A program made the translations under genes and the position numbers. The notes beneath the pieces were generated by a model. The model ran no database searches. It was not told the origin of the DNA and saw nothing but the letters and a program-made list of their open reading frames with translations. 55,234 nt of DNA from a virus: IMG/VR virus record IMGVR_UViG_3300040801_001718, positions 1-55,234 of that record, one strand, 5' to 3'. Below, in pieces: positions 3,995 through 55,234 of this stretch (positions are counted from its first letter, which is position 1; the number at the start of each line of letters is the position of its first letter).

Positions 3995-6900
3995 TTAACT
4001 ACTTCTAAAATAAGTTAATCTTATATAATTATCACTTGCAACCATACTACACGTAGTAGATGACCCTTGCTGGTCACATACTAATTCCAGATAATCATTA
4101 GTACTCAATTGTATTAAAAATGGTCCAGCCCCTATACTTCCAGAATCCTCGGTTGTATTTCTTGTATAATTAGTGGATGTACCCCTACCTAAATAATCAG
4201 AACCATTTTTTCTTATTCTGCCTCTCACATTACTTCGCCCAGAGGCACCGTCATAATACAAATTGTATGAAACTTCATACCAACCATTCTGGTCTACGTA
4301 CACGCGTGAATTATTCGTAGAATTATCGTGAGTAAAATAATCATCATCTTTTAAATCTTCTTGATTCCAACCCACCGCAACTGGCGTAGATGAATTTACA
4401 TTAGTTGTGTTTGTACTATAGCACTGGATTGTTTTTGGCGCGCCGACAGTCACAGTTGTATAACTTACACCACTTGTAACAGTTACATTACCTTCAAAAT
4501 TTAGGTTAGAAACCGATGAAGCTTCTATTGATCCGTCTTGTGATATATTAATAGTAGCTCCAACACCTGGCTGTCCATTTTGACCTGCCGGACCCTGCTC
4601 TCCTCGTAAACCTTTTAAAGAAATTATTGTTAAAATAGTATCATCTGTTCCAGTAGTACTTCCAGAAGTATTTTCATATGCCTGTAAAGTTATATAATCA
4701 TTTTGTTGTAATGAAATAATAAATGAACCAGTTAATTCATGTTCTTCATTAGTATAAGTATTAACTTCTGATTCACTACCATCAAGTACAGTAGACCCGT
4801 TCTTCAATATCCGGCTGTAACTGTAATTAGAGCTACTTCTTATTACTTGGAATTTATAGGTAATGAAATATAACCCTGTTTCTTTTATATTTATACGCTC
4901 AGTATTACTATCATCATGTTCTAACACATCTGTATCGTTTTCAAAATCAGTGGTATCAAATGTTACATCTCCCCAACTACCTGGAAAAGTAAAATCAGTA
5001 GTTCTTCTTATCTGACATGCCGGTAAATCACCAGTTTCAATAGCATCTATCTGGTCAGCTAAAGCACCAGAAACGGAAGTTAACAAATTGTCTACTTCAG
5101 TTTCCGTGTAGTATCTATTATCATGATCTGTACTACCAGCTGCTGTATGATTTGTAATCCAAGCATCAACCTGAGTCTGAGTATAATATCTTGCATCACC
5201 CCTTGTATCATTGTGGTATTGTGAATGATCATCATCACCTAATCCTGTTAATTCTCCATGGTCAGTTGTTAAACCAGAAATTTCATCATCCACATACTTC
5301 TTATCAACTAATTCTGTAGTATTCGTAAATGTTGGATGAGAACTATAAGAAACTTTTCCAGTATAAGCACGGGTTCCATTTGACAAACTATACTGATTAT
5401 GATCATCATCATCAAGACCAGATAAATCACCATGGTCTGGACTAAATGATGACAACGCATCATCCACATATTTCTTATCAACAATATCAGTAGTAGACGT
5501 AAAAGTTTTATGTGAGTCATAACCAACTATACCTGTAAAAGGTCTAGTCCCAGACACAAGCACGTACTGAAAATGATCGTCATCTTGTAAACCCATTAAC
5601 AGTCCATGATCTAAATTACCACTAATAGTAACATTACCAGACAAAGTTGTCAACAAATAATCTACTTGCGTCTGCGTATAATATCGTGAATCTCCACGAA
5701 AATCATTGTGATATTGAATATGGTCATCATTAGCTAATCCACCAAGATCCCCGTGGTTTGATAAACCAGGCAATACACCATCACGGCCATAAGCAGTATA
5801 AACAATTGCTTGATCCAAATCAGTGAGATCAGTAGCCCCTCGTTTTACTATTAAATAGGCTCTTAAAACTGCGCCTTCTACAGAACCAGTAAGTAAATCA
5901 AAATTATCAGAGCTAATACCATCATAAGCTAACGATAGTGAATCATAACAATGCTGTCCCCACAATACAACTGTTACATCAGATACAGCAAAATAATAAA
6001 TTCTCTGAACAGTCCATTTTCCTGTAGGAACAGGTGTTAATACACCACCGACATCATAATAGTTAGGATCTATTTCACTTTTTTCAGTATAACGATAACT
6101 ATTAGAAATTTGATAATAGTATGAAGAAATTGAATTATCTGCTGTAGATTCATAAATATTAGGACTAGTTGGCTGATTTGTTCTATTTGCTCCTTTTCTA
6201 AATGCTTTACCAGCAGTTCTTCTTAAAGTCATAGGTGTAATAGTTGATACAGAATATCTATTTCCAGTTATGTTAACAGCGCCATAAGAATCAATAAAAT
6301 CCTCTAATGTTTTTGCTGCACAATACGCGGCTGTAGTATAATTAGCAATATTTGTAATTTCATCTGAACCAGAAATTGTTGACCAGTACTTACCCAAAAC
6401 AGCTGTGCTTCTTCTTTCTAACGCACTAAAATCATTATCTATAATTAATCCACCAACTCCTGATGAAACTCTATAAACTCCTATCCACTTATAAAAATCA
6501 CCATTCAAAGACCCACTAATACTTTGAGTTGGCCAAGACAATGTCTCAACCACAGGATCACCAGGATCTGACATATCCACATATATAGAAGTACCAGATA
6601 TAACATCCAACATATAAGAATTGATAGCATTTATAGATAAAGTACCGCCAGTTAAAATTCCAGTAGTATCAGCATATACTGCCAAATCCACATTGGCGTT
6701 GTCCTTTTTGAATCCACCAGCGGTTATTGTGTAATCACCAGCGTTCCAATCATTTGTAAGGGGCACTGATCCATCCTTATATAGCATTTGATTTGTTATA
6801 GACCCTGATATGGAATCCACTTCTGTTTCAGTGTAATAAAGATCATTTAAGGTTCCACTATCTAAATCTGTCTGTGAATAAGTAGTATTATCTACATAAG

Positions 6901-9892: not shown

Positions 9893-9893
9893 A

Positions 9894-11096
9894 TTATGAT
9901 AACCTCCAAAATTCTATTCGAGATCTTCTAATGCCAGCTGTGTCAGAGCTATTAGAAGCTCTAAAGTCAATATCAACATAATGATTACCTGAACTTAAAT
10001 ATACATAATAAAAATTAGATGCTATGTGCCATTGATCAGTATTGGCGTCTTGTGGTTCTTCACAATGTTCATTTACAGTAGTGGTATCATCTACTTGTAC
10101 TCTACCTTGAAAATCACGCCCAGTACTACTATATTGCCATTCATACCCCCACGCCACTCTATAAGTACCGGCTGGTATACCACTTACAGAAAATCTTGAT
10201 TTCTGAACCCAAGACGTACTACTTGTATCTGTTTGAGAATCATCCAAAGTATACCCGTACCAACTACCAAACTTTGGAAGAATTGTTGCGGTACCACTAA
10301 CCGTATCATCAATATCACAAGCTTTAAAATTAATTATTTCTGTAGGACTACCACTTATGGTTATTCCATTGTCTTCAACATAAATGGTGGAACCAGACCC
10401 TGGATCACCTTTATCACCTGTATCACCTTTCAAACCAGTAAAAGGAAAAATAGTTAACGATGAACCATCTGCTAAAGTTTTTATAGTGCCGCCGCCAGAT
10501 TCTCTTTGAGCTTGTACTCTCAGTCCATTTGTTTTTTCTAAATCAAGCAGTAAAATAACAACTGCGGTAGAAGCCCCTTGAGAATTACTCCTACTATACA
10601 TACGGGCTAAACTACCATTAACATAATTATAACCGCTACCACTGTCTAAAGTCAATCTCATCGAAGCTTCGCTTCTTGAATCACCGGCTGATTGATAAAT
10701 AGTAACTCTAGCTACAACTACATAAGTACCAGTTGTATTTATAATAATTTCTGAGGGAGCCGATACAGTGTCATGAGTAAAATCAGATGTTTTTTCTCTA
10801 TCAGTATCAAATGGTATGTCAGTCCATCCAGATGTTACATCTGTATCTCCCGATGAATCATAAGCATCAAAATAAGCATTATATACACCACTTGCAACGA
10901 CATCAGCTATTTGATCATCTACATACCATTTTGTAGTTAAATGACCATCTTTTGTTGGATTAACACCACTAATAGTAGTTGAAATACGCAACTCTTCTGA
11001 GTCCCCATCCCAATATAACATACTATCATTATTGGTACCAAATACCGCCATGTCGTCATCTTTAAAAAATATATCTTTTTGACTAAATCTTGCCAT
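9894..11096 (-). CDS. Fibre protein with collagen-like stretch and C1q-like domains
   Basis: A protein of 400 residues. The N-terminus (MARFSQKDIFFKDDD) matches the N-terminal module of the next gene upstream: both have an FGT-N-M-WDG core followed by T(V/I)SGV-PT and HLTTK-YVDD. This suggests a common virion-attachment peptide. The middle is a C1q/TNF-like beta domain, followed by a short collagen-like run (GLKGDTGDKGDPGSG, about residues 224-238) and a second beta-sandwich to the C-terminus (FWRLS). The same order of C1q-like, collagen and C1q-like occurs at the C-terminus of the giant fibre next door, from which it is only one base away. Likely a trimeric accessory fibre or receptor-binding head. 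Confidence 0.85.
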   Translation of the reverse strand: MARFSQKDIFFKDDDMAVFGTNNDSMLYWDGDSEELRISTTISGVNPTKDGHLTTKWYVDDQIADVVASGVYNAYFDAYDSSGDTDVTSGWTDIPFDTDREKTSDFTHDTVSAPSEIIINTTGTYVVVARVTIYQSAGDSRSEASMRLTLDSGSGYNYVNGSLARMYSRSNSQGASTAVVILLLDLEKTNGLRVQAQRESGGGTIKTLADGSSLTIFPFTGLKGDTGDKGDPGSGSTIYVEDNGITISGSPTEIINFKACDIDDTVSGTATILPKFGSWYGYTLDDSQTDTSSTSWVQKSRFSVSGIPAGTYRVAWGYEWQYSSTGRDFQGRVQVDDTTTVNEHCEEPQDANTDQWHIASNFYYVYLSSGNHYVDIDFRASNSSDTAGIRRSRIEFWRLS

Positions 11097-11125
11097 AGTA
11101 ATTAACCTCCGTCTTATTTTAGACC

Positions 11126-11162
11126 GTTATAGGAGGGGATATTTTAATACCCCTCCTATAAC
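11126..11162 (-). terminator. Hairpin after a fibre gene (13-bp perfect stem)
   Basis: A perfect 13-base inverted repeat (GTTATAGGAGGGG and its complement) with an 11-base AT loop lies 8 bases after the stop of the 560-residue fibre gene. No long U-run follows on the minus strand, so it may be an inefficient terminator, an attenuator or a 3'-end stabiliser rather than a full stop. Confidence 0.5.
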
Positions 11163-11169
11163 CAAGGTG

Positions 11170-12852
11170 TTAATCCTCGATAATACTCCAATCCAACACG
11201 TAATTAGCTGAATCCATATCGCCCATAAAAGTAACAGTGAAACCAGTTGAAGCTCTTGCACTTACAATAAATGCATAAATTGAAGGGGGTGAATCGGTAA
11301 TATTCTCCAATGTAGCATTAATTGTATAATTGGTGTGCCCCAAATCTGCGAAACTAATAGATACTTGAGAAGCTCCATTAGCAACAGCTTGTCGTCCATG
11401 ATTATCTATACCGCCTTGATCAACATAAGACTTAGTAGCTAAATGATACCCTTGAGTCGGATCTACACCAGAAACAGTAGCTGTAAAACCTCTAGTACCA
11501 TCAACAAGAACATACTGAGTATGATCATCGTCATCTAAACCAGCCAATGACCCGTGATCAATTTCAGACGCAGGAATACCACTAACTGTAATAGTATTAG
11601 CTGTGTCATTGTAATTAACAGTAACACTACCAGCACCACTCATGATATTACCTACAGCATCCTGAGCTTCCTCATCAGTATATCTAGCATGGTGAGCACT
11701 TGAAATAGCAGCATGAGCGGCTATATCAGAATCAATTTCAGAACTTAAAGCTCCACTAATAGTATTAACCTCTGATTCAGTATAATATCTATCATCATGA
11801 ATATGCTCTGAACTTGCGTTGCCAACTCCACCTGCACTAGTTAAATCAGTATACATAGTAGAAGTTAAATGATAGTACTCATTAGATGTGCCACCTTGCA
11901 AACCTGATAAATTATTATGCGTAGTAGTAGATCCAAATTGTACCCAACTACCAGCTGGATAATCGTTATTATATACATACAAACCATCAAGCTCTTCTAC
12001 CCATGCAGCATAACCCTCAGCAGGTTCGACCCCGCTCCAAGAAGTACCAGTGTACTCCATAATATAATTAGCTGTCCATGTACCACTAGTAGTAAGTGCT
12101 ATATATCTATTACCCTCTACAGCTATACCAGAAGCAATAGGTACTATATCGATTACCGGTTCTTGCCAACTTAAACCTTGACTTATATTATCTACATACT
12201 GCTTAGTAGTCAAGTGATTATCAGCAGTAGGAGTAATACCTCCTACCGTTCCAGTAAACGCTCTGGTACCATCCACTAAAATATATTGTGTATGATCGTC
12301 ATCACCCAATCCGTCTAAATCACCGTGGTCTTTATTACCACTAATAGTTACTGTGGTACTATTAGAACTTAATCCAATATTCCCAGCTCCTACTAGAGAT
12401 TTAAATTGTAAATCAACAAGTACTTTTTGTGCATATAAACCTTCACCGCCCCCAAGATTGGATGCAGTAGTTATTTCACCTGTACCACTAAGTGTGTCTA
12501 CATATGCCTTAGTAGTTAGATGATAATCCTGTGTAGGATAAACTCCAGAAACAGTATTAGTAAAACCTCGGCTGGCATTAATTGGCATATATTGAAGATG
12601 ATCATCATCCTCTAAACCAGTCAAGCCACCGTGATCTGTTATAATATTGCCACTAACTGTTGCAATTTCATCATCTACATACTGTCTTGTAGTCAAATGG
12701 TAACTTTGTGTAGGATCTACACCACTTACAGTGCTATTAACACGTAAATCATTAGCGGTCCCATCCCACCACATATCAGCATTTAAACCAGTGCCAAAAG
12801 TTACCTGTTGACCATCTTTAAGTCGTAAATCACCGCTTGTAAACTTAGCCAT
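11170..12852 (-). CDS. Fibre protein with DDDH repeats and C-terminal lectin-like domain
   Basis: A protein of 560 residues beginning MAKFTSGDLRLKDGQQ. The N-terminal module (FGTGLNADMWWDG, then VSGVDPT..YHLTTRQYVDD) is shared with the 400-residue neighbour. At least three copies of a composite repeat follow: GL.DDDH.QY, a GTR.FT segment, SGV.PT and HLTTK.YVD. The last 55 residues (TNYTINATLENITDSPP to the end) resemble the repeated beta modules of the 759-residue protein next upstream, which look like H-type-lectin folds. No catalytic motif is seen. It is probably a trimeric side fibre that shares an attachment peptide with its neighbour. A hairpin lies directly downstream. Confidence 0.85.
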   Translation of the reverse strand: MAKFTSGDLRLKDGQQVTFGTGLNADMWWDGTANDLRVNSTVSGVDPTQSYHLTTRQYVDDEIATVSGNIITDHGGLTGLEDDDHLQYMPINASRGFTNTVSGVYPTQDYHLTTKAYVDTLSGTGEITTASNLGGGEGLYAQKVLVDLQFKSLVGAGNIGLSSNSTTVTISGNKDHGDLDGLGDDDHTQYILVDGTRAFTGTVGGITPTADNHLTTKQYVDNISQGLSWQEPVIDIVPIASGIAVEGNRYIALTTSGTWTANYIMEYTGTSWSGVEPAEGYAAWVEELDGLYVYNNDYPAGSWVQFGSTTTHNNLSGLQGGTSNEYYHLTSTMYTDLTSAGGVGNASSEHIHDDRYYTESEVNTISGALSSEIDSDIAAHAAISSAHHARYTDEEAQDAVGNIMSGAGSVTVNYNDTANTITVSGIPASEIDHGSLAGLDDDDHTQYVLVDGTRGFTATVSGVDPTQGYHLATKSYVDQGGIDNHGRQAVANGASQVSISFADLGHTNYTINATLENITDSPPSIYAFIVSARASTGFTVTFMGDMDSANYVLDWSIIED

Positions 12853-12871
12853 GGCTTATTGTGTCCCTCCT

Positions 12872-15151
12872 TTAAGAATTTATATATCCAGGATCAAATC
12901 CTGGCTCAAATCTAATTGTGTCAGAAGCTATAGCAATACCAATAGATTGTTTCCATGCACCTGAATTAGGTGCAGCACTAGCTAAAGCTCCATCAACTGT
13001 TGAAACATAAATCACATCACCTGCTGTCCAAGACCACGCACCTTTTCTTATAATTCCTTTCCATAAAATTTTCTTACTACCAGTTCCTTCTTCTAAAGCA
13101 ATTGCCGAACAAGGCATTCTGGTCGTACCACTCACCGCAGTACATTGTTCCCAATGTCCGTTTGATTTCATATGTAATGGGCATCCTACACCAGTGTCAT
13201 TCCAATCAACTCGCATAGTAGATACATCACCACTCCACCCTACTGTATATCCATGCAAAACCATGCCACTGGGTGTTGTATTTAATACAATATTATAATC
13301 ACCTAATTCTAAATCTCCGCCCAATTCTGGGGAAGTGTCAGCTATTAAACTAGCTATATAATTACCACCAGCTAATCCGCCTGATATAGTAGCGTGCCAG
13401 TTTAACAAATAGTTATTTGAATCAATTTCACCAGAATAATGAACTCTAAATCCTGTTGTATATTTATTAGTAATAGTAAGAGCATACTCTGATGATGGCG
13501 CATCAACAGAGTTTTCTAAACTAAGAACTAAAGAATAATCATCACTAGGAAAAGCAGATCCAAATAATACATCAGTATAAGTATTCCCCTGTCCTAATAT
13601 CTCACTACCAAATTTATTCTGATTAATTATATTTAATATTTCTTGTTTGGTATAATATCTAGCGTCACCACGATCATCAGTATGATATTGTGGATGATCA
13701 TCTTCGTCTAGTCCTCTTAACCAACTATGTCTAATTCCTGACAAAGTACCATAATTACTACTACATGGCGAAGCACCAGATAAAGTAGCGTACCAATTTA
13801 AATAATAATTAGTAGAGTCTATTTCTCCAGAATAATGAACTGTAAAACCGAAAGGTGATTTCTCAGTAATAGTAATAGAATATTCTGAAGACGGATCATC
13901 AACCGTGTTCTCTAAATCAATTACTAAAACGTACTCATTATTATCAAATGGTGCGCCAAAATTAACCTGAGTTTCTGTATCCCATAAATTGAGATTCTCT
14001 CTACCTGACTTGGTTTGTCCTAATATTTCTAACAGCTGATTCCAAGTACCGCTAATAGCACTATCTACGTATTCTTTTGTGGTAAGGTGGTAATCTTCTA
14101 CCGGATAAACACCTGACACAGTAGAAGTAAATCCTCTAGTACCATTTGTCGGCACATATTGGGGATGATCATCATTTAACAATCCTAACAAATCACCATG
14201 AACTATCACACCACTTATAGTTGAAATGGTATAATCCACATACCACTTTGTAGCCAAATGGTAATCTTCTACCGGATAAACACCTGACACAGTAGAAGTA
14301 AATCCTCTAGTACCATTTGTCGGCACATATTGGGGATGATCATCTCTATCTAAATCAAGTAACCAATAATGTGGTATAGTTCCAGACAAAGTACCTGAAA
14401 TATTTGTAACTCCATAAATTAAACGATCAGTTGCAGCATCATACTTAACAACAAACTGATCACCCATACCGCTTTCATCTATACACTTAGTTCCTAAATA
14501 ACACCTATGATGTGCATTATCTACTGAATATTTAATTCCAGACGCAGTAGATGTATAGATACCATCACTAACTGCTTCAGAAACGTTTACTATGCCATCA
14601 TCATCTGGATCATATACAGATTTACGCATATAAATCTCAACACTAGGTGAAATGCCAGATCCACATACATCCCCATCCGCCATACCTCTTCGAGAAGGGG
14701 TATGCGGTTGCTGAACAATTAAATTTCCAGATTTATCTTTAACACTAAATGTTAAAAACGGAGTAGACTTATCATCATCATATAATACCCAATTGTCTGT
14801 ATCTCCATCATCAAGTTCTAATCTATTAGTTTGTATTTTTCTAAGTAGAATAGTACGTATATCTACAAGACCCACTGTTGATTCTATGGAATTAAGCACT
14901 TCAGCGTATTCACCACTTGAAGCATAGGTGTATCTTTCGGCGCCAGAAAGCGTAACACTATCACATATAACAGCATAATCACGTGATGGTTCATACGCAT
15001 CGAAACTGTACCTATAAAAACCATCCCCGGTCTCTACCATATTCTCATCGTTAACTACCGTTAATCCAGTTGCAACATCCAAAACTTTAACGAGAGGACT
15101 AAGACCTAAAGCTGGCTCACCACTATCTGTAAAAAACGCAAGTATCCACAT
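12872..15151 (-). CDS. Modular fibre protein with duplicated lectin-like domains
   Basis: A protein of 759 residues. Residues 1-170 form a beta module also found as a free-standing protein at 2310-2801. Next come DDDH-type repeats, two of which are encoded by an exact 86-bp direct repeat (14088-14173 and 14259-14344). Two H-lectin-like units follow, each with PSSEY..TIT.K, GF.VHYSGEIDS.NY and LNW. The C-terminal 130 residues (GHWEQC to FEPGFDPGY) match the C-terminal domain of the next protein, 15171-15830. Alternating shared modules show that this locus has grown by duplication and shuffling. Likely a capsid or tail fibre; carbohydrate binding is an inference from the lectin-like repeats. 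Confidence 0.85.
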   Translation of the reverse strand: MWILAFFTDSGEPALGLSPLVKVLDVATGLTVVNDENMVETGDGFYRYSFDAYEPSRDYAVICDSVTLSGAERYTYASSGEYAEVLNSIESTVGLVDIRTILLRKIQTNRLELDDGDTDNWVLYDDDKSTPFLTFSVKDKSGNLIVQQPHTPSRRGMADGDVCGSGISPSVEIYMRKSVYDPDDDGIVNVSEAVSDGIYTSTASGIKYSVDNAHHRCYLGTKCIDESGMGDQFVVKYDAATDRLIYGVTNISGTLSGTIPHYWLLDLDRDDHPQYVPTNGTRGFTSTVSGVYPVEDYHLATKWYVDYTISTISGVIVHGDLLGLLNDDHPQYVPTNGTRGFTSTVSGVYPVEDYHLTTKEYVDSAISGTWNQLLEILGQTKSGRENLNLWDTETQVNFGAPFDNNEYVLVIDLENTVDDPSSEYSITITEKSPFGFTVHYSGEIDSTNYYLNWYATLSGASPCSSNYGTLSGIRHSWLRGLDEDDHPQYHTDDRGDARYYTKQEILNIINQNKFGSEILGQGNTYTDVLFGSAFPSDDYSLVLSLENSVDAPSSEYALTITNKYTTGFRVHYSGEIDSNNYLLNWHATISGGLAGGNYIASLIADTSPELGGDLELGDYNIVLNTTPSGMVLHGYTVGWSGDVSTMRVDWNDTGVGCPLHMKSNGHWEQCTAVSGTTRMPCSAIALEEGTGSKKILWKGIIRKGAWSWTAGDVIYVSTVDGALASAAPNSGAWKQSIGIAIASDTIRFEPGFDPGYINS
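14088..14173. repeat. 86-bp exact direct repeat, copy 1
   Basis: Identical over 86 bases to 14259-14344, inside the fibre gene. It encodes the segment from the end of one DDDH repeat to the start of the next, including DDHPQYVP, NGTRGF and SGVYPVEDYHL. Exact identity at synonymous positions indicates a recent duplication or gene conversion. Confidence 0.9.
14259..14344. repeat. 86-bp exact direct repeat, copy 2
   Basis: Second copy of the exact repeat at 14088-14173, offset by 171 bases (57 codons), so the reading frame is kept. Confidence 0.9.
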
Positions 15152-35191: not shown

Positions 35192-36280
35192 TTAAGCATT
35201 TGATGTAGCAGCTAAAGACCATTCTTCTACAGACAGATCTCCAAAATCAACAGCGTCGCCAGTGGAACTAATAGTAATATAATCAATAACATTAATTTTT
35301 GCATCATCAAGTGCGCCACCGCCAAATACGCCGCGATCATTCACATCATTTGAAGTAGATGCTAGTTGTGCACGAGCCGCTGTTAAATCTCCAAAATCCT
35401 GGGCATTGCCAGTAGAAGTTATGGTTATATATTCAATTATATTATACTCCGGACCAGTATCACCACCGCCGAACACACCTCTATTGTTTGTTCCGTTAGA
35501 AGTAGCAGCAAGCGCATATCTACCTACTGTTAAATCCCCGAAATCTGTGGCATTACCAGTAGTTGAAATGGTGACATAATCAATTACGTTAGAAATGGCA
35601 CCACCACCAAACACACCTCTATTGTTAGTACTATTTGAAGTACTAGCGATGGAATATCTAGTTCCGATCAAATCCCCAAAATCTGTGGCATTTCCGGTAG
35701 TAGAAATGGTGACATAATCAATTATGTTAGAAGCTGGTGCTACACTACCACCGCCAAATACACCTCTATTGTTAGTACTATTTGAAGTAGTCCCTAAACT
35801 ATGTCTTTTTATCGTCAAATCGCCAAAATCAGTAGAGTTTCCAGTAGTAGAAATAGTTATATATTCAATTGAATTAGTAATCGCACTTGTTTGACCACCA
35901 CCAAGTACACCTCTATCATTAGTACCATTCGAAGACGCACCAAGACCGAATCTTGCGTTTATTAAATCACCGAAATCTGTAGTGTTACTCGTAGTTGAAA
36001 TGGTTATATACGACATTACATTTAATTTAACACTACTCCATCCACCAATGAATACACCTCTATCTCTTCCAGAAAAATCTTCTTCTGGTGAAATACCTCC
36101 ATAACCCAAAACCTCGCCATCAGATTTTAAAGCCAGGACAGTTTTAGTTCCAGAAACCAGAGCTGTTACTTCATAATCTCCCACTGATTCCAATGAGTTA
36201 GATTCGATTGACCAGTCAGATTCTTTTAATATTAAAATTCTGGCGCTATCGTTTAAAGTCCCAGAAATTTTATAGGCCAT
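35192..36280 (-). CDS. Six-repeat propeller-like fibre protein (copy 1)
   Basis: A protein of 362 residues. Residues 1-75 form a shared N-terminal domain (YKISGTLNDSARILI, DWSIESN, VSGTKTV, GYGGISPEE). Six repeats of about 45-50 residues follow, each starting RGVFGGG (first copy RGVFIGG) and containing (I/V)(D/E)Y(I/V)TI(S/T)(S/T)TGNA.DFGDL and a (A/S)TSN.TN end. The repeat number and Gly-rich strand turns suggest a six-bladed beta-propeller. Three other genes here share the plan (41792, 43404, 54217). They are probably alternative receptor-binding or accessory fibre proteins. The gene overlaps the next by 11 bases at its start side. Confidence 0.85.
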   Translation of the reverse strand: MAYKISGTLNDSARILILKESDWSIESNSLESVGDYEVTALVSGTKTVLALKSDGEVLGYGGISPEEDFSGRDRGVFIGGWSSVKLNVMSYITISTTSNTTDFGDLINARFGLGASSNGTNDRGVLGGGQTSAITNSIEYITISTTGNSTDFGDLTIKRHSLGTTSNSTNNRGVFGGGSVAPASNIIDYVTISTTGNATDFGDLIGTRYSIASTSNSTNNRGVFGGGAISNVIDYVTISTTGNATDFGDLTVGRYALAATSNGTNNRGVFGGGDTGPEYNIIEYITITSTGNAQDFGDLTAARAQLASTSNDVNDRGVFGGGALDDAKINVIDYITISSTGDAVDFGDLSVEEWSLAATSNA

Positions 36281-37249: not shown

Positions 37250-38248
37250 TTATAATACAGCTGCCATCAAACAACCATTAGCAACTGCTGTCATTGGATC
37301 TTTCGCTCTTCGTACTTCTTTAATCTCAAAAGGAAACTTCTTTCCTAATAAACCCTCTTTAAATTTATTTACAAATCCCTTTGCCAATGTCAAACCACCA
37401 GACACAACGACTGGAATTTCTTCTCTAAAAGAAGGTAATTTGGATTTATCTAATTCATATAAGATATTTTCCAAAGCATAATTAATTAGTACATTATAGT
37501 AAACTGATATAGCTTCTTGTATTTTACCTTCAGGATTTGCCAAATTAATACCACCTTCCTCTTTTTCTACCTGAATTAACGAAGATCGTTCATCAATAGC
37601 TTTACCAACAGAACTATCAATCCAATCACCACCCTTAGTTAATGAAAACTGAATAATAGGGTCACCCTCATAACAAACAGCGGAATTAACCATACCAGCA
37701 CCAAATGAAAGGCACATTCCGGTAAGATTGTCATCCAGCAATTCGGAAAACGCTATTGCGAACCCCTCGTTTAGTGGGGTAGCGTCAAAGCCCATTTCTC
37801 TCATATATGATTTCATCATTTCTGTATGAAAAAATATATCGAATTCACCATCTACTGGCTCAGCCGGTATTGAAAACACTAGATCATCACTACCACTACC
37901 TCTACCTATTAAACTCTCAATAATAAGCTTAATCATTGGTAAAGAATCCTTCTCTTTTGGCGAAAGAACTCCTTTACTCATAGGACGACGTGCATCAGCA
38001 TTACGTTCATTTGCCATAAGCAATGCGTCCTCACCCACGACTATAAAATCACCAACTTCGTCTATGATAAAATTAGCTTTCCTACTCTCTAAAGCCATTC
38101 TAATACTTTTTTGATTAACTTTAGACTTTGGGGTAATTCTAAGAAAAGCATCTCGCTGTCGCTTATAAATAGGATTGCCTTCTGCACCCATAATTGCAGA
38201 AACCAACATATTAGTTCCTATATCCAAACCTACTCCTTTACTACCCAT
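37250..38248 (-). CDS. Actin-like ATPase (ParM/MreB superfamily)
   Basis: A protein of 332 residues. Phosphate-1 motif GVGLDIGTNML (residues 5-15), phosphate-2 type CLSFGAGMVNSAVCY near 180, and adenosine motif VVVSGGLTLAKGF near 285 are in the correct order and spacing for the actin/Hsp70 ATPase fold. The length fits ParM, Alp and MreB rather than DnaK. Phage actin-like proteins form filaments that move or segregate DNA or position assembly. Neighbours are a coiled-coil protein and ClpP upstream and a helical protein downstream, all in one run. No obvious RHH-type ParR gene is visible. AGGAGG precedes the ATG. Confidence 0.85.
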   Translation of the reverse strand: MGSKGVGLDIGTNMLVSAIMGAEGNPIYKRQRDAFLRITPKSKVNQKSIRMALESRKANFIIDEVGDFIVVGEDALLMANERNADARRPMSKGVLSPKEKDSLPMIKLIIESLIGRGSGSDDLVFSIPAEPVDGEFDIFFHTEMMKSYMREMGFDATPLNEGFAIAFSELLDDNLTGMCLSFGAGMVNSAVCYEGDPIIQFSLTKGGDWIDSSVGKAIDERSSLIQVEKEEGGINLANPEGKIQEAISVYYNVLINYALENILYELDKSKLPSFREEIPVVVSGGLTLAKGFVNKFKEGLLGKKFPFEIKEVRRAKDPMTAVANGCLMAAVL

Positions 38249-41791: not shown

Positions 41792-42898
41792 TTACGCATC
41801 AGAACATGCAGCTGGGCTCTGCTTGCCCATTGTTAAATCGCCAAAATCACTAGCATTTCCAGTATTAGAAATGGTTATATAATCTATCAAATTAGTAATA
41901 GCGTCAGAATAACCGCCTCCAAATATACCGCGCTCATTGGTTCCATTCGAGGTACTACTGCTAATATACCTAGCTACTGTTAAGTCGCCAAAATCAGTAG
42001 CATTTCCAGTCGACGAGATTGTTATGTATTCTATAACATTAACTCTATCGCTTATATAACCCCCACCAAACACTCCTCGATTATTAGTATGGTTTGAAGT
42101 AGCAGTTACATAACTTATATCATTACTAAGGTCTCCGAAATCTGAGGCATTGCCAGTAGAAGTAATGGTTATATAGTCGATAACATTCATAAATGATCCA
42201 TTATCACCACCACCCCATACACCTCGATTGTTAGTAGCATTCGAAGTAGCTGACGCGTATCTACGAACAGCTGTCAGATCACCAAAATCTTGACTATTTC
42301 CTGTATTAGAAATTGTAATATATTCTATTATATTTGTCCAATTATTTCCATCATATCCACCAGCTCCAAACACACCACGTTCATTAGTTCCATTAGATGT
42401 AGCAGTAAGCCATGTCCACGTTTTAGTAAGATCACCAAAATCTGATGTATCTCCAGTTGTAGAAATAGTAATATATTCTATCACATTAGAACGAGATCCA
42501 TCATCACCACCACCAAATACTCCACGATCATTCGTACCGTTCGAAGTAGCACTTAAGCTTGTTTTTGCTACACTTAAATCACCGAAATCTGTGGCATCCC
42601 CAGTGGTTGAAATGGTTATGTAATCAATTATGTTACTACGAGCTACAGTTTCGTCAGCCCCACCGCCAAAAACACCTCTATCTCCTCCAGAAGAATACTC
42701 TTCTGGTGAAATACCTCCATAACCCAAAACTTCCCCATCAGATTTTAAAGCTATGACTGTTTTAGTTCCAGAAACTAGCGATTCTATTTCATAATCTCCG
42801 ACCGATTCTTCGGTATTTGATTCGATTGACCAGTCAGATTCTTTTAATATTAAAATTCTGGCGCTATCGTTTAAAGTCCCAGAAATTTTGTATGACAT
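41792..42898 (-). CDS. Six-repeat propeller-like fibre protein (copy 2)
   Basis: A protein of 368 residues. The N-terminal 75 residues are nearly identical to those of the genes at 43404 and 35192 (SYKISGTLNDSARILI, NTEESVGDYEIESL). Six repeats follow, each opening RG(V/I)(F/W)G(G/A)G, with variable residues after the Gly-rich turn, then YITIS.TG...DFGDL. The variable stretch of each repeat (for example GYDGNNWTN, DNGSFMN) differs strongly between paralogues, as expected for exposed loops on a propeller face. It is probably a fibre or host-recognition protein. GGAGG precedes the ATG. Confidence 0.85.
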   Translation of the reverse strand: MSYKISGTLNDSARILILKESDWSIESNTEESVGDYEIESLVSGTKTVIALKSDGEVLGYGGISPEEYSSGGDRGVFGGGADETVARSNIIDYITISTTGDATDFGDLSVAKTSLSATSNGTNDRGVFGGGDDGSRSNVIEYITISTTGDTSDFGDLTKTWTWLTATSNGTNERGVFGAGGYDGNNWTNIIEYITISNTGNSQDFGDLTAVRRYASATSNATNNRGVWGGGDNGSFMNVIDYITITSTGNASDFGDLSNDISYVTATSNHTNNRGVFGGGYISDRVNVIEYITISSTGNATDFGDLTVARYISSSTSNGTNERGIFGGGYSDAITNLIDYITISNTGNASDFGDLTMGKQSPAACSDA

Positions 42899-43297: not shown

Positions 43298-43326
43298 GAT
43301 GACCTCTTTTCAAATATATAATTTTA

Positions 43327-43396
43327 TGGGAGAGTAGGATTCGAACCTACATTAACTGGGTCAGAGCCAGTCGTCCTACCATTGAACGATCCCCCA
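43327..43396 (-). tRNA. tRNA-Gln (CTG)
   Basis: A complete cloverleaf of 70 bases. The acceptor TGGGGGA pairs with TCTCCCA. D stem GTTC/GGAC. Anticodon stem ACTGG/CCAGT with loop CTCTGAC, so the anticodon is CTG (reads CAG). T arm GTAGG-TTCGAAT-CCTAC. U1-A72 is a known feature of tRNA-Gln. No CCA is encoded. It starts 7 bases after the stop of the fibre gene at 43404 and ends 28 bases before the start of the spanin-like gene. Confidence 0.9.
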
Positions 43397-43403
43397 TTAT
43401 ATG

Positions 43404-44504: not shown

Positions 44505-44539
44505 TATTTTATTTATCTCCTTTTTGTATTTTTAATGGA

Positions 44540-44610
44540 GCGGACACGGAGAGTCGAACTCCGGTCAGCGGATTGGAAGTCCACCGCACTGGCCACTGTG
44601 CTATGTCCGC
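44540..44610 (-). tRNA. tRNA-Gly (TCC)
   Basis: A 71-base cloverleaf followed by discriminator T and an encoded CCA (44536-44538). Acceptor GCGGACA/TGTCCGC, D stem GCAC/GTGC, anticodon stem GTGGA/TCCGC with loop CTTCCAA, so the anticodon is TCC (reads GGA). T arm CGGAG-TTCGACT-CTCCG. The stop codon of a 55-residue gene abuts its first base. Confidence 0.93.
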
Positions 44611-45487: not shown

Positions 45488-45504
45488 TGTATTGCCTCCC
45501 GTGA

Positions 45505-45575
45505 GCGGGCAATGGGAATCGAACCCATACTGTTAACTTGGCAAGCTAACGTGCTACCACTATCACTATGCCCGC
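45505..45575 (-). tRNA. tRNA-Gly (GCC), overlapping a protein gene
   Basis: A 71-base cloverleaf: acceptor GCGGGCA/TGCCCGC, a three-pair D stem with GTGGTA loop, anticodon stem TTAGC/GTTAA with loop TTGCCAA (anticodon GCC, reads GGC), T arm ATGGG-TTCGATT-CCCAT. No CCA is encoded (TCAC follows). The preceding protein gene (45546-46097) reads into it for 30 bases and stops at a TAG formed by bases 28-30 of the tRNA. Confidence 0.92.
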
Positions 45576-46097
45576 TTTTGTATTTTTAACTATGTCAATT
45601 ATAAATCCAAGTGGTTTTGGTGTTGTCCACATAACTCTATTTGAAAAATCTGATTCAAATTCTCTACCAGCAAATTTACCAGTTGTTTCCTTTTTATAAG
45701 CTGTGACAACCAAAACGTATTTAGTGTCATATGGTATAGGAAAATTTTTCTTAGTAAGCTCGATAGATTTGATATCAAATGATTCTATATTGGCTCTAAA
45801 AAGATAGTTATTTTTTAAAATATCTTGTTTATTAATTGGAATAAAAACACCTTCACCGCCTGGAACTTCCTCGTAAGATCTTGTATCGTAAGTACAATCA
45901 GTATCTACAACAGAACAATAATAATCAAGTGTCCACACATAAACATAAGTCCCACAAACTGCTGTAGGTGAGCAAACATCTGTGCTGGTCCACTGAAGTG
46001 ATTTTGCTTCTATTATATTTGAAAAAATTCCAACTAAAAGTAAGGATGCTAAAACCAGCCTTCTAAATTTTTTCAGGAAAAAAGGCTTTTTAACCAT
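45546..46097 (-). CDS. Secreted Fn3-like protein ending inside tRNA-Gly
   Basis: A protein of 183 residues. A signal peptide is likely (KKFRRLVLASLLLVGIFSNIIEA, cleavage after Ala near residue 31 or so). The mature part has paired Cys (VCSPTAVC, then YCSVVDTDC) and a fibronectin-III-like strand pattern (YVLVVTAYKKE, NRVMWTTP). The last nine residues (AGIVIVVAR) are encoded by the first 27 bases of the tRNA gene, and the TAG stop lies in its anticodon stem. Envelope localisation is likely. The function is unknown; a superinfection-exclusion or lysis role is possible. Confidence 0.7.
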   Translation of the reverse strand: MVKKPFFLKKFRRLVLASLLLVGIFSNIIEAKSLQWTSTDVCSPTAVCGTYVYVWTLDYYCSVVDTDCTYDTRSYEEVPGGEGVFIPINKQDILKNNYLFRANIESFDIKSIELTKKNFPIPYDTKYVLVVTAYKKETTGKFAGREFESDFSNRVMWTTPKPLGFIIDIVKNTKAGIVIVVAR

Positions 46098-47058: not shown

Positions 47059-47640
47059 CTAATTTTTAATAAATTCTACTCTGTTTAACCATCCTCTGGC
47101 GTATTTTTCTTGAATAGGACTTTCGGTCATATAAGTGATATAGTGCATCCCTTGTAAAATATTTAGAACTTTGTACAAATAACTAACATTATCAGTAGCT
47201 AAATACATAGACAAAGCCCTATATGTATTTTGTCCAAATTGACCATCTTCGACAATATCTTCATATATTTGTTGATTTCGGTTTAGAATGTTTAAACCTC
47301 TTTGTAGAAATTTGATTGCTCGACTAGCTCCCATATTTACGCTGGTATCAAATAATTCGTTTGCTAAATCCTGTTCTGATAATTCATCGCCCCAAAATAA
47401 ATTCCAAAAAGTTGATTTATAAAATAATTTAACCATGTCTTCTAATTCAGAATTACTTTCTAAATTGTTTGGAAAATCAGAACTACTTTTTGCTTCATCT
47501 ATAATGGGCCATCCTTCCCAATCAGGATGATATCGTCTAGAAATACCTTTATAAGTTTCTTTACCCGAATCATCGGGATCATTTGAATAACCACCTTCAT
47601 GACCTAACGTAATATTATACGCCGTATTAAAATTCGCCAT
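47059..47640 (-). CDS. Endolysin, GH108-type N-acetylmuramidase
   Basis: I place the start at ATG 47640 (MANFNTAYNITLGHEGGYS), with GGAGA and good spacing; the open frame extends upstream without a site. The 193-residue protein has the hallmark HEGGYSNDPDDSG with catalytic Glu15, then TYKGISRRYHPDW, and GASRAIKFLQRGLNIL with the C-terminal putative peptidoglycan-binding fold (VEDGQFGQNT.RAL). This is the glycoside hydrolase 108 plus PG-binding-3 pattern. It cleaves the glycan chain at lysis. No signal peptide is seen, so export would need a holin. It ends in TAG. The permuted NlpC/P60-like gene lies directly upstream. Confidence 0.9.
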   Translation of the reverse strand: MANFNTAYNITLGHEGGYSNDPDDSGKETYKGISRRYHPDWEGWPIIDEAKSSSDFPNNLESNSELEDMVKLFYKSTFWNLFWGDELSEQDLANELFDTSVNMGASRAIKFLQRGLNILNRNQQIYEDIVEDGQFGQNTYRALSMYLATDNVSYLYKVLNILQGMHYITYMTESPIQEKYARGWLNRVEFIKN

Positions 47641-47650
47641 ACTAACTCTC

Positions 47651-48220
47651 CTATGATAATCGTTCTGCCAAGATAGTCCATCGATCTGGATATTTCTCCC
47701 AATCATCTTCTATATCGTCTGGATCACAGGACATCCATGGCACATTATTAAATTCATAACCACATGCCGTATTATAAATCCAAGCTACAAAACTTGAACA
47801 CACTTGATTATATATATTCTCGTCTTTATTACTAAACCAGTTTGTTTTAAAGATATGATCTAAAAATTGTAAAAGTATTCGATGTACCCCATAAAATTTT
47901 CCTAATAATTGTGGTGCAGTTCGAAGCATAACATCTTGTTGGTGTTGGCTTAAATCATTTTTTCTTGCTATTCGCCAATACTTTTTGTTTTTGAATAATT
48001 TATCTAATTTGATACTCCTTAACCGCCAATGGGCTTCCCAAGCTTCTATATTATCTTTTACAATTAAACAATGACCCCAATGTACAGGATCATCTTGAAA
48101 ATGTCTCATAAACCATACTATTAAATTGTTATCACAGGATAATATAATATCTCCAGTTTTCAAAGTTGGTAAAACGTTTTTCTCTAAATGCTGACGTGAC
48201 AGTTTTAGATTGATATCCAT
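47651..48220 (-). CDS. Permuted NlpC/P60 (YiiX-like) papain-fold protein
   Basis: A protein of 189 residues. The order is GDIILSCDN, then VHWGHCLIV with candidate catalytic His50, then a C-terminal QVCSSFVAW with candidate nucleophile Cys141. This is the circularly permuted papain-like layout (His before Cys) of YiiX/YebB and related enzymes. Members act on peptidoglycan peptides or lipids or amides. Beside the endolysin it may be a second cell-wall hydrolase. It starts 18 bases after the suppressor-type tRNA and ends in TAG, four bases before the next ribosome site. No signal peptide. Confidence 0.75.
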   Translation of the reverse strand: MDINLKLSRQHLEKNVLPTLKTGDIILSCDNNLIVWFMRHFQDDPVHWGHCLIVKDNIEAWEAHWRLRSIKLDKLFKNKKYWRIARKNDLSQHQQDVMLRTAPQLLGKFYGVHRILLQFLDHIFKTNWFSNKDENIYNQVCSSFVAWIYNTACGYEFNNVPWMSCDPDDIEDDWEKYPDRWTILAERLS

Positions 48221-48238
48221 TATGTTTTACCTCTGTGA

Positions 48239-48309
48239 TCGTGTGGGGGGAGTTGAACCCCCCTAAAACGGTTTTAGAATCCGCCGCCTAGCCGCTCGGC
48301 CACACACGA
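48239..48309 (-). tRNA. Amber-suppressor-type tRNA, anticodon CTA
   Basis: A 71-base cloverleaf: acceptor TCGTGTG/CACACGA, fully paired; D arm GCC-(9)-GGC with GG in the loop; anticodon stem GCGGA/ACCGT (one G-U, one A-A mismatch next to the loop); loop TTCTAAA, so the anticodon is CTA (reads UAG); T arm GGGGG-TTCAACT-CCCCC. The variable loop is 5 bases, so it is not of Ser/Leu/Tyr type. U1-A72 occurs also in the tRNA-Gln here and is a Gln-type feature. No CCA is encoded. A 9-base loop with TCT would be the alternative, but it would need a poorer stem. Confidence 0.8.
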
Positions 48310-48618
48310 TTGATCAGTATATTCAATTTTTATTTTATCTATCCATTCCTCGTTAGGTAAATTATTTTCACGAGGATTTTCTATTTGTGATCTTATTTTA
48401 CCTCTCAACTCAGAATAAGCGATGTGCCTATGTCGGTATTCCCTACGTAATTTATTAAGATTTACAAAATTATCAGAGTATTCTTTATACTCTTTGGAAT
48501 TCCAACTAAATCCTCCATAATCATTACGCTGATGATCTTTGAAAAGATTTTTACGCAGTCTTATTTCAACTGCTGAAGTTTTTAACCAATTTTTAAGTTG
48601 CGTCGTTTTATGCCCCAT
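48274..48618 (-). CDS. Basic hypothetical protein ending inside the suppressor tRNA
   Basis: A protein of 114 residues, MGHKTTQLKNWLKTSAVE at the start, with GGAGG 9 bases before the ATG. It is basic and aromatic (NLNKLRREYRHRHIAYSEL). The last 11 residues (SCVAERLGGGF plus stop) are encoded by the 5' part of the tRNA. The stop TAA uses the last two bases of the CTA anticodon. The family is not recognised. The strong ribosome site supports a real gene. The 99-base gap before it holds the ribosome site and AT-rich sequence without other features. Confidence 0.7.
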   Translation of the reverse strand: MGHKTTQLKNWLKTSAVEIRLRKNLFKDHQRNDYGGFSWNSKEYKEYSDNFVNLNKLRREYRHRHIAYSELRGKIRSQIENPRENNLPNEEWIDKIKIEYTDQSCVAERLGGGF

Positions 48619-53106: not shown

Positions 53107-54186
53107 TTAGCCTCCAAAAACTTTCCTATTGACTAGAGTGCTATCACCACTTAATTGCGGAATTTGAGTAAATTCAGACTTTAATGTTTGAACAGCCTGG
53201 TTATGTGCTTCTTTAAAAGTTATATTTGGATTAGATTTAATAGCTTTAGTGATTGCCCATGTAAAAGCACCTTGATATTTATTACCTATATTAGCATCAG
53301 CGGAAGTTTGATCATCTTTACATCCAGAAATTAATATATGATTTTGAGAAGCAGATTTATCTTGTTTAGCCCCTATAATTTTTACTGGCAATTTTCTATC
53401 TACTGATCTAGATTTTATATCGAAAGGAGGTTCTAAATAACGAGGAGTATGGCGTTCTTTTGTTTTATTTCCAGGATTATTTAATCCACGAGTCATCGTA
53501 CCACTATGACAAGAATCACAGAACATTGTCAAATAAACACCTTTTGGCACTTTTTTAAATAGTTCAGCTAAATCATCATCAGTTAAAGGGTTGTTCCAAT
53601 CCAAGTCTGTTGGACAAAGTATTTCATCCAATGAATCATTTAGTTCATCCCCATTTCGATCTCTAATCTGACTTCCATGACCTGAATAATGAAAAAACAA
53701 TTCATCACCCGCAACTGGATCTTTCACTAACCAGTTTAATCTTTCTAAAATACCTTCTTTGGTCGCTCTAAAATCAGTAAGAACTCGTATATTATCGGCT
53801 TCGAATCCAAACTGATTGACAAGTAAATTTCTCATATTTTCAACATCATTAACGCATCCTTGTAAATCTGCATTTAGATCTGGGGCATATTTATTAATTC
53901 CAACCAATACAGCTTTCTTTATTGGTTTACGATTTGTTGGTGCAGGTACTACTACATCATCATCGTCATCTTTTTTAAATTTATCCAAAAATTTCTTTAT
54001 GCATTTACACATTTCGTCTTCTCCAAACTTATGAATTTTATCCCTTGTTTCTTTAGCTTCATTATCCCATAATTTTAAAAGTTCTGATCTTGGTATATTG
54101 TATTTTTTAAACTCTTTCCAAGCTAATTTAGTCCATTTATATCTATAATAGTGATTTAAATATGTACCTTTTTCCCACTTAGCCAT
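53107..54186 (-). CDS. Metacaspase (peptidase C14-type)
   Basis: A protein of 359 residues. Residues 1-75 are a basic helical pre-domain with two nearby Cys (MCKCIKK), followed by an Asp run and Pro-rich linker (DDDDDVVVPAPTNRKP). The caspase-type domain starts KKAVLVGINKY and has the dyad His170 in FHYSGHGSQ and Cys226 in CDSCHSG. In between is the DRNGDELNDSLDEILCP segment typical of metacaspases, in line with a basic P1 pocket (cleavage after Arg/Lys). The C-terminal part has ILISGCKDDQTSAD and GAFTWAI as in the family. All key residues are present. It lies between a fibre gene and a small acidic gene. AGGAG precedes the ATG. Confidence 0.92.
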   Translation of the reverse strand: MAKWEKGTYLNHYYRYKWTKLAWKEFKKYNIPRSELLKLWDNEAKETRDKIHKFGEDEMCKCIKKFLDKFKKDDDDDVVVPAPTNRKPIKKAVLVGINKYAPDLNADLQGCVNDVENMRNLLVNQFGFEADNIRVLTDFRATKEGILERLNWLVKDPVAGDELFFHYSGHGSQIRDRNGDELNDSLDEILCPTDLDWNNPLTDDDLAELFKKVPKGVYLTMFCDSCHSGTMTRGLNNPGNKTKERHTPRYLEPPFDIKSRSVDRKLPVKIIGAKQDKSASQNHILISGCKDDQTSADANIGNKYQGAFTWAITKAIKSNPNITFKEAHNQAVQTLKSEFTQIPQLSGDSTLVNRKVFGG

Positions 54187-54216: not shown

Positions 54217-55234
54217 TTAAGCATCTGAAGTAGCTGCTATATCATATTTATTTGCTCTAAGATCACCAAAATCAGTAGCATTGCCAGTAGATGAAATGGT
54301 TATATAATCGATAATATTACAAGCCGCTGTAGTATAACCACCGCCGAAAACGCCACGATTATCCGTACCGTTAGATGTAGCAGCCAAAAAACGTCTGGCA
54401 GCTGTTAAATCTCCGAAATCAGTAGCATTACCAGTCGAAGAGATAGTAACATAAGTAATAACATTAGTAGTAGTACCCCTATCTCCACCGCCAAACACAC
54501 CACGATTACTAGTACCATTAGAAGATGCCGCTAAAACATATGTGGCCGATAATAAATCACCAAAATCAGTAGTATTACCGGTTGAAGAAATGGTTATATA
54601 TTCAATCGTATTAAATTTTGATGCGGAACTTGAAACTCCACCACCAAAAATACCTCTATTATTTGTTGCATTTGATGTTGCTGATGTACCTCTGATTTCC
54701 TCCACCAAATCACCAAAATCAGAAGCATTACCGGTAGATGAAATTGTGATATATTCTATAATGTTAGAACATAATGAAATGTCAGTAGTACCTCCCCCAA
54801 ACACACCTCTATTACTTGTTCCATTAGATGAAGCTGCTAATTCTTGTCTTGATGATGCAAGATCACCAAAATCACTTGCATTACCTGTAGTAGATACAGT
54901 CACATAATCAATAATATTATATCTATTAGCGCTCATTGATCCGCCACCAAACACTCCACGATCATTAGTGCCATTAGAAGTAGCGGCTAATTTTTCTCTA
55001 TATAATGAGAGATTACCAAAATCACCGGCATTACCAGTTGATGAAATAGCTATGTATTCTATTTCCCAATTATCACCACCAAATAAACCTCTGTCCCCAG
55101 CAGTATAAGATGGTACTGTTTCAAAATACCAAATGTCACCAGTTGTTGTGCCGGTTTCATTCTTTGAATCAATTCTCCAGTAATAAGTACCGTCTTTTTC
55201 TAATGTACCGGGATCATAATTTGTTCCTTCTTGA
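54217..55234 (-). CDS. Six-repeat propeller-like fibre protein (copy 4), partial at the right edge
   Basis: The frame is open from the right edge (first whole codon ends at 55233) to the stop at 54217: 338 residues plus missing N-terminus. The visible start is an Fn3-like end (DGTYYWRIDSKNETGTTTG, then IWYFETVP), unlike the N-terminal domain of the other three copies. Six repeats follow (first one shorter, RGLFGGDNWEIEYIAIS), all with the RG(V/I)FGGG and DFG(D/N)L pattern, ending AATSDA. A GTG near 54954 is internal and not the start. It is 30 bases upstream of the metacaspase gene. Likely a large fibre whose last domain is the propeller. Confidence 0.85.
   Translation of the reverse strand, partial: QEGTNYDPGTLEKDGTYYWRIDSKNETGTTTGDIWYFETVPSYTAGDRGLFGGDNWEIEYIAISSTGNAGDFGNLSLYREKLAATSNGTNDRGVFGGGSMSANRYNIIDYVTVSTTGNASDFGDLASSRQELAASSNGTSNRGVFGGGTTDISLCSNIIEYITISSTGNASDFGDLVEEIRGTSATSNATNNRGIFGGGVSSSASKFNTIEYITISSTGNTTDFGDLLSATYVLAASSNGTSNRGVFGGGDRGTTTNVITYVTISSTGNATDFGDLTAARRFLAATSNGTDNRGVFGGGYTTAACNIIDYITISSTGNATDFGDLRANKYDIAATSDA

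Follow-up and report, generated by a model that had tools for sequence, protein, structure and literature searches.

A tRNA with anticodon CUA in a standard-code phage, probably the surviving RNA part of an orf114/PTH2/tRNA(CUA) cassette

Suppressor tRNAs of phages that use the standard genetic code have so far had no known target, as was stated for phage XacN1 (PMC5852040), and the genome studied here raises the same question, namely what a tRNA with the anticodon CUA does in such a phage. The stretch analysed, referred to as the window, is the full 55,234-base virus record IMGVR_UViG_3300040801_001718 (positions 1 to 55,234), in which a sequence-only reading had pointed to an amber-suppressor-type tRNA. 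We consider it probable that this tRNA, here called tRNA(CUA), is a functional-looking amber suppressor in a phage of standard code, and the RNA component that survives here from a cassette formed by orf114, a PTH2-like gene and the tRNA.

The tRNA gene and the genetic code of the phage

The gene was identified by ARAGORN (anticodon CTA, 48237..48309, minus strand) and by Rfam RF00005 (48238-48309, with 48.6 bits against a gathering score of 29 and an E for the whole window of 2.2e-7), which agrees with the cloverleaf recognised in the sequence-only reading and amends its span to 48237-48309 on the minus strand. The sequence is 5'-TCGTGTG TG GCC GAGCGGCTA GGC G GCGGA TTCTAAA ACCGT TTTAG GGGGG TTCAACT CCCCC CACACGA T-3'. 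As had been described, the acceptor stem (TCGTGTG/CACACGA) and the T stem form all of their pairs; the T-loop consensus is intact, the D stem has 3 bp, and the anticodon stem is made up of four pairs and an A31.A39 mismatch, with a G27-U43 wobble. With a score above the gathering score and with acceptor, D, anticodon and T stems paired, the gene belongs to RF00005. The variable loop (TTTAG) has 5 nt, the discriminator is U73, and no CCA is encoded. When the bare RNA is folded to minimum free energy, the D region refolds and the result is not the cloverleaf (z -2.0).

The anticodon CTA (48275..48277, minus strand) lies within the loop TTCTAAA (48273-48279), and by this anticodon the tRNA is of the amber-suppressor type. 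The alternative anticodon TCT (Arg), which the sequence-only reading had itself raised, is excluded since it leaves no paired anticodon stem. The ARAGORN label "Pyl" reflects the anticodon only. A tRNA-Pyl was rejected on structure, as two bases (T8 G9) stand between the acceptor and D stems, the anticodon stem has 4-5 bp and the variable loop has 5 nt, whereas the marks of tRNA-Pyl are, we assume, a single base at the first of these places, a 6-bp anticodon stem and a 3-nt variable loop. No PylRS, other aminoacyl-tRNA synthetase or release factor was found by Pfam among the ∼55 window proteins scanned, in a contig that may be a fragment; the likeness to tRNA-Pyl is thus confined to anticodon and label. 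The gene is confirmed as a real tRNA, one that by its anticodon would be able to read UAG.

Three further tRNAs were found by ARAGORN on the minus strand: tRNA-Gly(GCC) (45503..45575), which is part of a recurring tRNA set also seen in the related genomes G006 and G063 (G and L numbers are our own labels for genomes and loci), tRNA-Gly(TCC) (44536..44610) and tRNA-Gln(CTG) (43325..43397). The TAG stop of a gene at 45546-46097 (-) lies inside tRNA-Gly(GCC), making this the second gene in the window to overlap a tRNA. The window has no close phage in GenBank, and direct searches there for relatives of the tRNA region and of orf114 returned none.

The phage uses the standard code. The window has 72 ORFs that reach 60 aa or more, almost all of them on the same strand, and these end in TAA (58, 81%), TAG (12, 16%) or TGA (2, 3%), in keeping with the "about a dozen" TAG stops counted earlier; the rarity of TGA stops is an observation in its own right. 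Genome-wide recoding of TAG (code 15) was ruled out because reading TAG as sense lowers coding density, from 0.937 under code 11 to 0.898. No internal TAG was found in window genes on comparison with relatives. A merge across TAG of the pre-terminase gene with the terminase, suggested by the relative G004, was rejected as the frames do not join in the window. Among close relatives, the terminase large subunit of L008, L009 and L018 begins to match only at residue 95-96 and the frame of G004 (9539-13600) extends over ∼1350 codons, probably because of an intein.

The first gene after tRNA(CUA) is Peptidase_C92-like (47651..48220, minus strand; below the Pfam cutoff), with a homolog in the related genome G016 that also lies 3' of a CUA tRNA. 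It is followed by an endolysin gene (Glyco_hydro_108 and PG_binding_3; 47059..47706, minus strand). In another phage (L108, 8736), an endolysin homolog has a TAG in frame where a tryptophan is conserved. Elsewhere in the window, 37250-38248 (-) encodes a member of the actin-like Volactin family (E 1.9e-68), a surprising companion to an endolysin that degrades peptidoglycan, and 53107-54186 (-) a caspase-domain protein (Peptidase_C14, E 8e-37) whose G006 homolog is 56% identical. Three matches to phrog_19111 (35192-36280, 41792-42898 and 54217-55233) are probably paralogs.

Gene order around tRNA(CUA) in relatives and in other phages

Directly 5' of tRNA(CUA) is orf114 (48274..48618, minus strand), recognised as an ORF and by homologs in the clade, which encodes 114 aa with a EYRHRHIAYSELRG motif. 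Its 3' end overlaps the tRNA by 36 nt, with the TAA stop (48274-48276), formed by the CTAA of the anticodon loop, lying partly on the anticodon. The clade was defined as relatives by terminase, many of which are without any tRNA and most of which are fragments. A CUA tRNA is present in all members that cover the internal tRNA region, these being the window, G006, G016, G020 and G063; the last was picked up by a tRNA pattern scan, the other matches of which were degenerate and not called as tRNAs. All five use the standard code, and their median protein identity is ∼42–57%, except for the pair of G006 and G063 at 76%; that between the window and the other members is ∼53–57%. Terminase relatives of the window occur on MAG contigs of Fermentibacteria, Parcubacteria and WOR-3, relationships too weak for host assignment.

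A homolog of orf114 lies just upstream of the CUA tRNA in all five members, and in G006, G016 and G020 a PTH2-like gene of ∼96 codons stands between the two and ends at the tRNA. This gene is missing from the window and from G063, where orf114 runs into the tRNA; an HMM search of the entire window for PTH2 gave no match, and the corresponding junction is at 48309..48310. The window therefore holds two of the three cassette parts. Two separate losses of PTH2 are the simplest account, since G063 is closest to the PTH2-bearing G006 and the window is about equally distant from all.

The arrangement extends well beyond this clade. Virus contigs were scanned with a PTH2-like alignment, blind to tRNAs, which gave 80 loci; clustering at 85% reduced these to 67. 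Of the 61 loci that have a same-strand tRNA downstream, 57 have CUA as the next one and two have UCA (opal). The CUA tRNA starts within 20 nt of the end of the PTH2 match in 24 loci and within 100 nt in 42, and in several loci its first base directly follows the PTH2 stop codon. Chance linkage is excluded, as CUA tRNAs make up merely 58 of the 414 tRNAs at these loci (p ∼6e-44, from a binomial that treats partly related loci as independent). One locus counted as an exception (L286) has a CUA tRNA ∼23 nt past PTH2 that was missed by ARAGORN. An orf114-like gene lies directly upstream of PTH2 in ∼37 of the 67 loci. Judged by gene order, orf114/PTH2/tRNA(CUA) is thus a putative widespread phage cassette, co-directional and often abutting, with its order kept in unrelated phages. 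Cultured phages are among the carriers: the Mycobacterium phages Alice and IkeLoa have PTH followed by a tRNA-sup with anticodon CTA, Mycobacterium phage Phabba is a further case, and Acinetobacter phage ME3 has the pair in reversed order.

Within the 5–10 kb seen per locus, TAG recoding is clear only in L332 (Lak-like) and L314, and possible in L291; nearly all PTH2-linked phages use the standard code, cultured mycobacteriophages included. In L291 and in L314, which is apparently TAG-recoded, the PTH2-like gene is followed by an opal-type tRNA (TCA) in place of CTA.

The PF01981 profile matches 22 of 39 proteins of the PTH2-like family at E ≤ 0.01 (best 1.1e-5), with the L165 copy taken singly giving a weak match of 17.7 bits, under the cutoff of 23, and the family matches the PDB PTH2 chains 24bt (E 1.8e-4) and 2zv3. 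The position aligned with a lysine of the solved PTH2 enzymes, which we take to be catalytic, is occupied by Tyr or Gln, and the hydrolase activity of the family is therefore uncertain.

In-frame TAG codons in PTH2 and a proposed role for the cassette

Relatives, rather than the window, supply the strongest evidence that CUA tRNAs of this kind decode UAG and that PTH2 is one of their targets. A single in-frame TAG with both flanks conserved was found in the PTH2 gene of 11 loci (L266, L271, L279, L283, L308, L315, L321, L238, L239, L241 and L255; L308 is the same record as L242). Several of these codons fall in one variable-length stretch after AEWLL. In L293 a TAG is at PTH2 codon 7. In L306 (∼5001) a TAG closes the orf114-like frame, and the PTH2 sequence, which has no start codon, follows in the same frame, making this locus a natural candidate for a readthrough fusion. 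The other in-frame stops in PTH2 are one TAA (L237) and one TGA (L336, at a conserved Trp), so that TAG accounts for 11 of 13 (p 2e-4 against one third), or for 9 of 11 (∼1e-3 by hand) when L238, L239 and L241 are counted as one. These three are the relatives of L237, whose TAA near 6094 occupies the PTH2 site at which they have TAG; the CTA tRNA of the L237 phage has a C31.A39 mismatch.

With the frame holding one in-frame TAG, PTH2 would need suppression in ∼11 lineages, and as most PTH2 genes are without TAG this dependence is not general. An all-against-all comparison for internal stops, restricted to sites with several supporting loci because of noise, found no comparably supported in-frame TAG in the other genes of the TAG-bearing loci. 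One such locus (L283) has no tRNA detectable within its 27.5-kb record. Taken together, the anticodon, the covariance score, the presence in all five clade members that cover the internal tRNA region and the TAG codons inside the PTH2 frame of related cassettes support the earlier assignment of tRNA(CUA) to the amber-suppressor type.

On this basis we propose that orf114, PTH2 and tRNA(CUA) would be transcribed together, with RNase P freeing the tRNA, and that the charged tRNA(CUA) would compete with RF1 at UAG during infection. The clearest natural target in the cassette family would be the PTH2 gene, the product of which, in the lineages with TAG, would be made only if suppression works. PTH2 may then act on tRNA(CUA), or on peptidyl-tRNA(CUA) derived from readthrough, and in this way limit or clean up suppression. 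With PTH2 gone and no phage gene visibly recoded, the targets in the window would be either the ends of its TAG-terminated genes or messages of the host, and that tRNA(CUA) has outlived PTH2 suggests that it is either useful alone or on its way out. More tentatively, and with somewhat more doubt than confidence, the cassette could be a self-regulating switch in which tRNA(CUA) suppresses UAG and the PTH2-like protein, made by readthrough in several lineages, curbs tRNA(CUA) or its peptidyl form; standard-code phages might thus control suppression, and the window would be a case in which the brake has been lost.

Alternative readings and comparison with known systems

The alternative that survives best, though we think it unlikely, is that tRNA(CUA) has been decaying and nonfunctional since PTH2 was lost, with orf114 reading across its 5' half. 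The absence of PTH2 and the 36-nt overlap fit such decay, as do the lowest Rfam score among the four tRNAs of the window, the 31.39 mismatch and an odd D arm; the remaining stem pairs and the T-loop consensus, however, are intact, and G063 has independently retained its tRNA after PTH2 loss. The mismatch is itself recurrent, being present in 15 of 65 CUA tRNAs but in 15 of 350 tRNAs of other types (p 4e-6), mostly with loops beginning TT, and it is found in mycobacteriophage CUA tRNAs as well. Changes in the anticodon arm modulate suppression, which one report shows for pair 27-43, not 31-39 (PMC13092985), and it is a reasonable guess by analogy that the 31.39 mismatch may tune suppression.

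Slightly less probable is that tRNA(CUA) is directed at the host, either through readthrough of host UAG stops or by filling the A site at UAG so as to counter stop-codon-specific mRNA cleavage, with the phage's own genes ending mostly in TAA. The stop usage of the window and the lack of a visible phage target accord with this, and the presence of PTH2 and tmRNA in tRNA-rich phages fits ribosome rescue. Avoidance of TAG stops in phages with CUA tRNAs was rejected, however, as their share (46/324, 14%) does not differ significantly from that in tRNA-less relatives (63/339, 19%; p 0.14), and the in-frame TAGs of PTH2 indicate phage targets in other lineages.

The sequence-only reading had favoured a suppressor that inserts Gln, with partial or timed readthrough of the phage's own TAG-ended genes, and this we now regard as improbable. 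The anticodon and the U1-A72 pair, which is indeed common to tRNA(CUA) and tRNA-Gln(CTG), are in its favour, and 69% of the theta-ribozyme-linked phage suppressor tRNAs were predicted to carry Gln (PMC10879173). Against this, T-A at 1-72 occurs in the clade only in the window and G016, with G-C in G006, G020, G063 and L235/L261, and U73 is atypical of Gln tRNAs. Among GenBank phages, BLAST matched tRNA-Cys and tRNA-Pro genes best, and the nearest neighbours with the anticodon masked are Cys, Gly and Gly, by a home-made and rough test that was correct for 69% of 410 phage tRNAs (Gln 22/27); tRNA-Gln(CTG) is not the nearest relative, and overall the tRNA does not group with tRNA-Gln. The masked classifier called Gln for just one of 68 related CUA tRNAs. 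Among 65 CUA tRNAs the discriminator is A in 39, T in 14, G in 8 and C in 4, and the first acceptor pair is G-C in 51. With N73, the first pair and the classifier result taken into account, no charging signature is shared across the CUA family, and for the window Gln is not indicated. The amino acid inserted probably differs between phages, and very divergent CUA tRNAs appear to have in common only position and anticodon. As for readthrough, the two genes right behind tRNA(CUA), Peptidase_C92-like and endolysin, both stop at TAG; readthrough would add seven codons to each, the first of the two TAGs overlapping the next ribosome-binding site. Over all 12 TAG genes the extensions would be 0–22 codons, mostly across ribosome-binding sites (TAGGAG), and with no interrupted gene there is no positive evidence for partial or timed readthrough.

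That tRNA(CUA) is an RNA-processing signal or recombination site instead of a decoder is very improbable: the tRNA often starts right after the PTH2 stop in relatives, where RNase P would trim the messenger, and the charging elements vary freely, but the CUA anticodon is kept while the rest diverges, the in-frame TAGs of PTH2 require a decoder, and no integrase was recognised among the window proteins scanned.

The reading of tRNA(CUA) as a functional-looking suppressor left from the cassette can be set beside several known systems. The closest is the standard-code jumbo phage XacN1, with two CUA tRNAs for which its authors found no targets; as in the window, reading through its amber stops revealed no recoded gene, and XacN1 also encodes a peptidyl-tRNA hydrolase (PMC5852040). 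No linkage to PTH2 was noted by those authors, whereas the linked, TAG-bearing PTH2 of relatives offers a target here. The code-15 phages (crAss-like, Lak) likewise encode a CUA suppressor, but TAG is reassigned throughout their genomes, unlike in the window and most PTH2-linked phages (PMC11210395, PMC10879173). Phages Alice and IkeLoa (Bixzunavirus), with a PTH2-like gene followed by a CUA tRNA, are annotated with the standard code; they differ in having a larger tRNA array and a tmRNA, and in the window lacking PTH2. The PTH2 of jumbo phages, of the same family as the cassette partner, has been interpreted as serving ribosome rescue, and the accessible part of that report does not mention a link to suppressor tRNAs (PMC7824862). 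A search of chiefly open-access literature on peptidyl-tRNA hydrolase, suppressor tRNA and phage returned no report of the pairing, so the orf114/PTH2/tRNA(CUA) cassette is apparently undescribed, a novelty that is provisional.

An adjacent PTH2 partner in dozens of diverse phages, bearing TAG in ∼11 lineages, makes the question of the target of standard-code phage suppressor tRNAs directly testable, and cultured phages of Mycobacterium smegmatis are among the systems open to such a test. The cassette also suggests that phage PTH2 may have a role other than general ribosome rescue.
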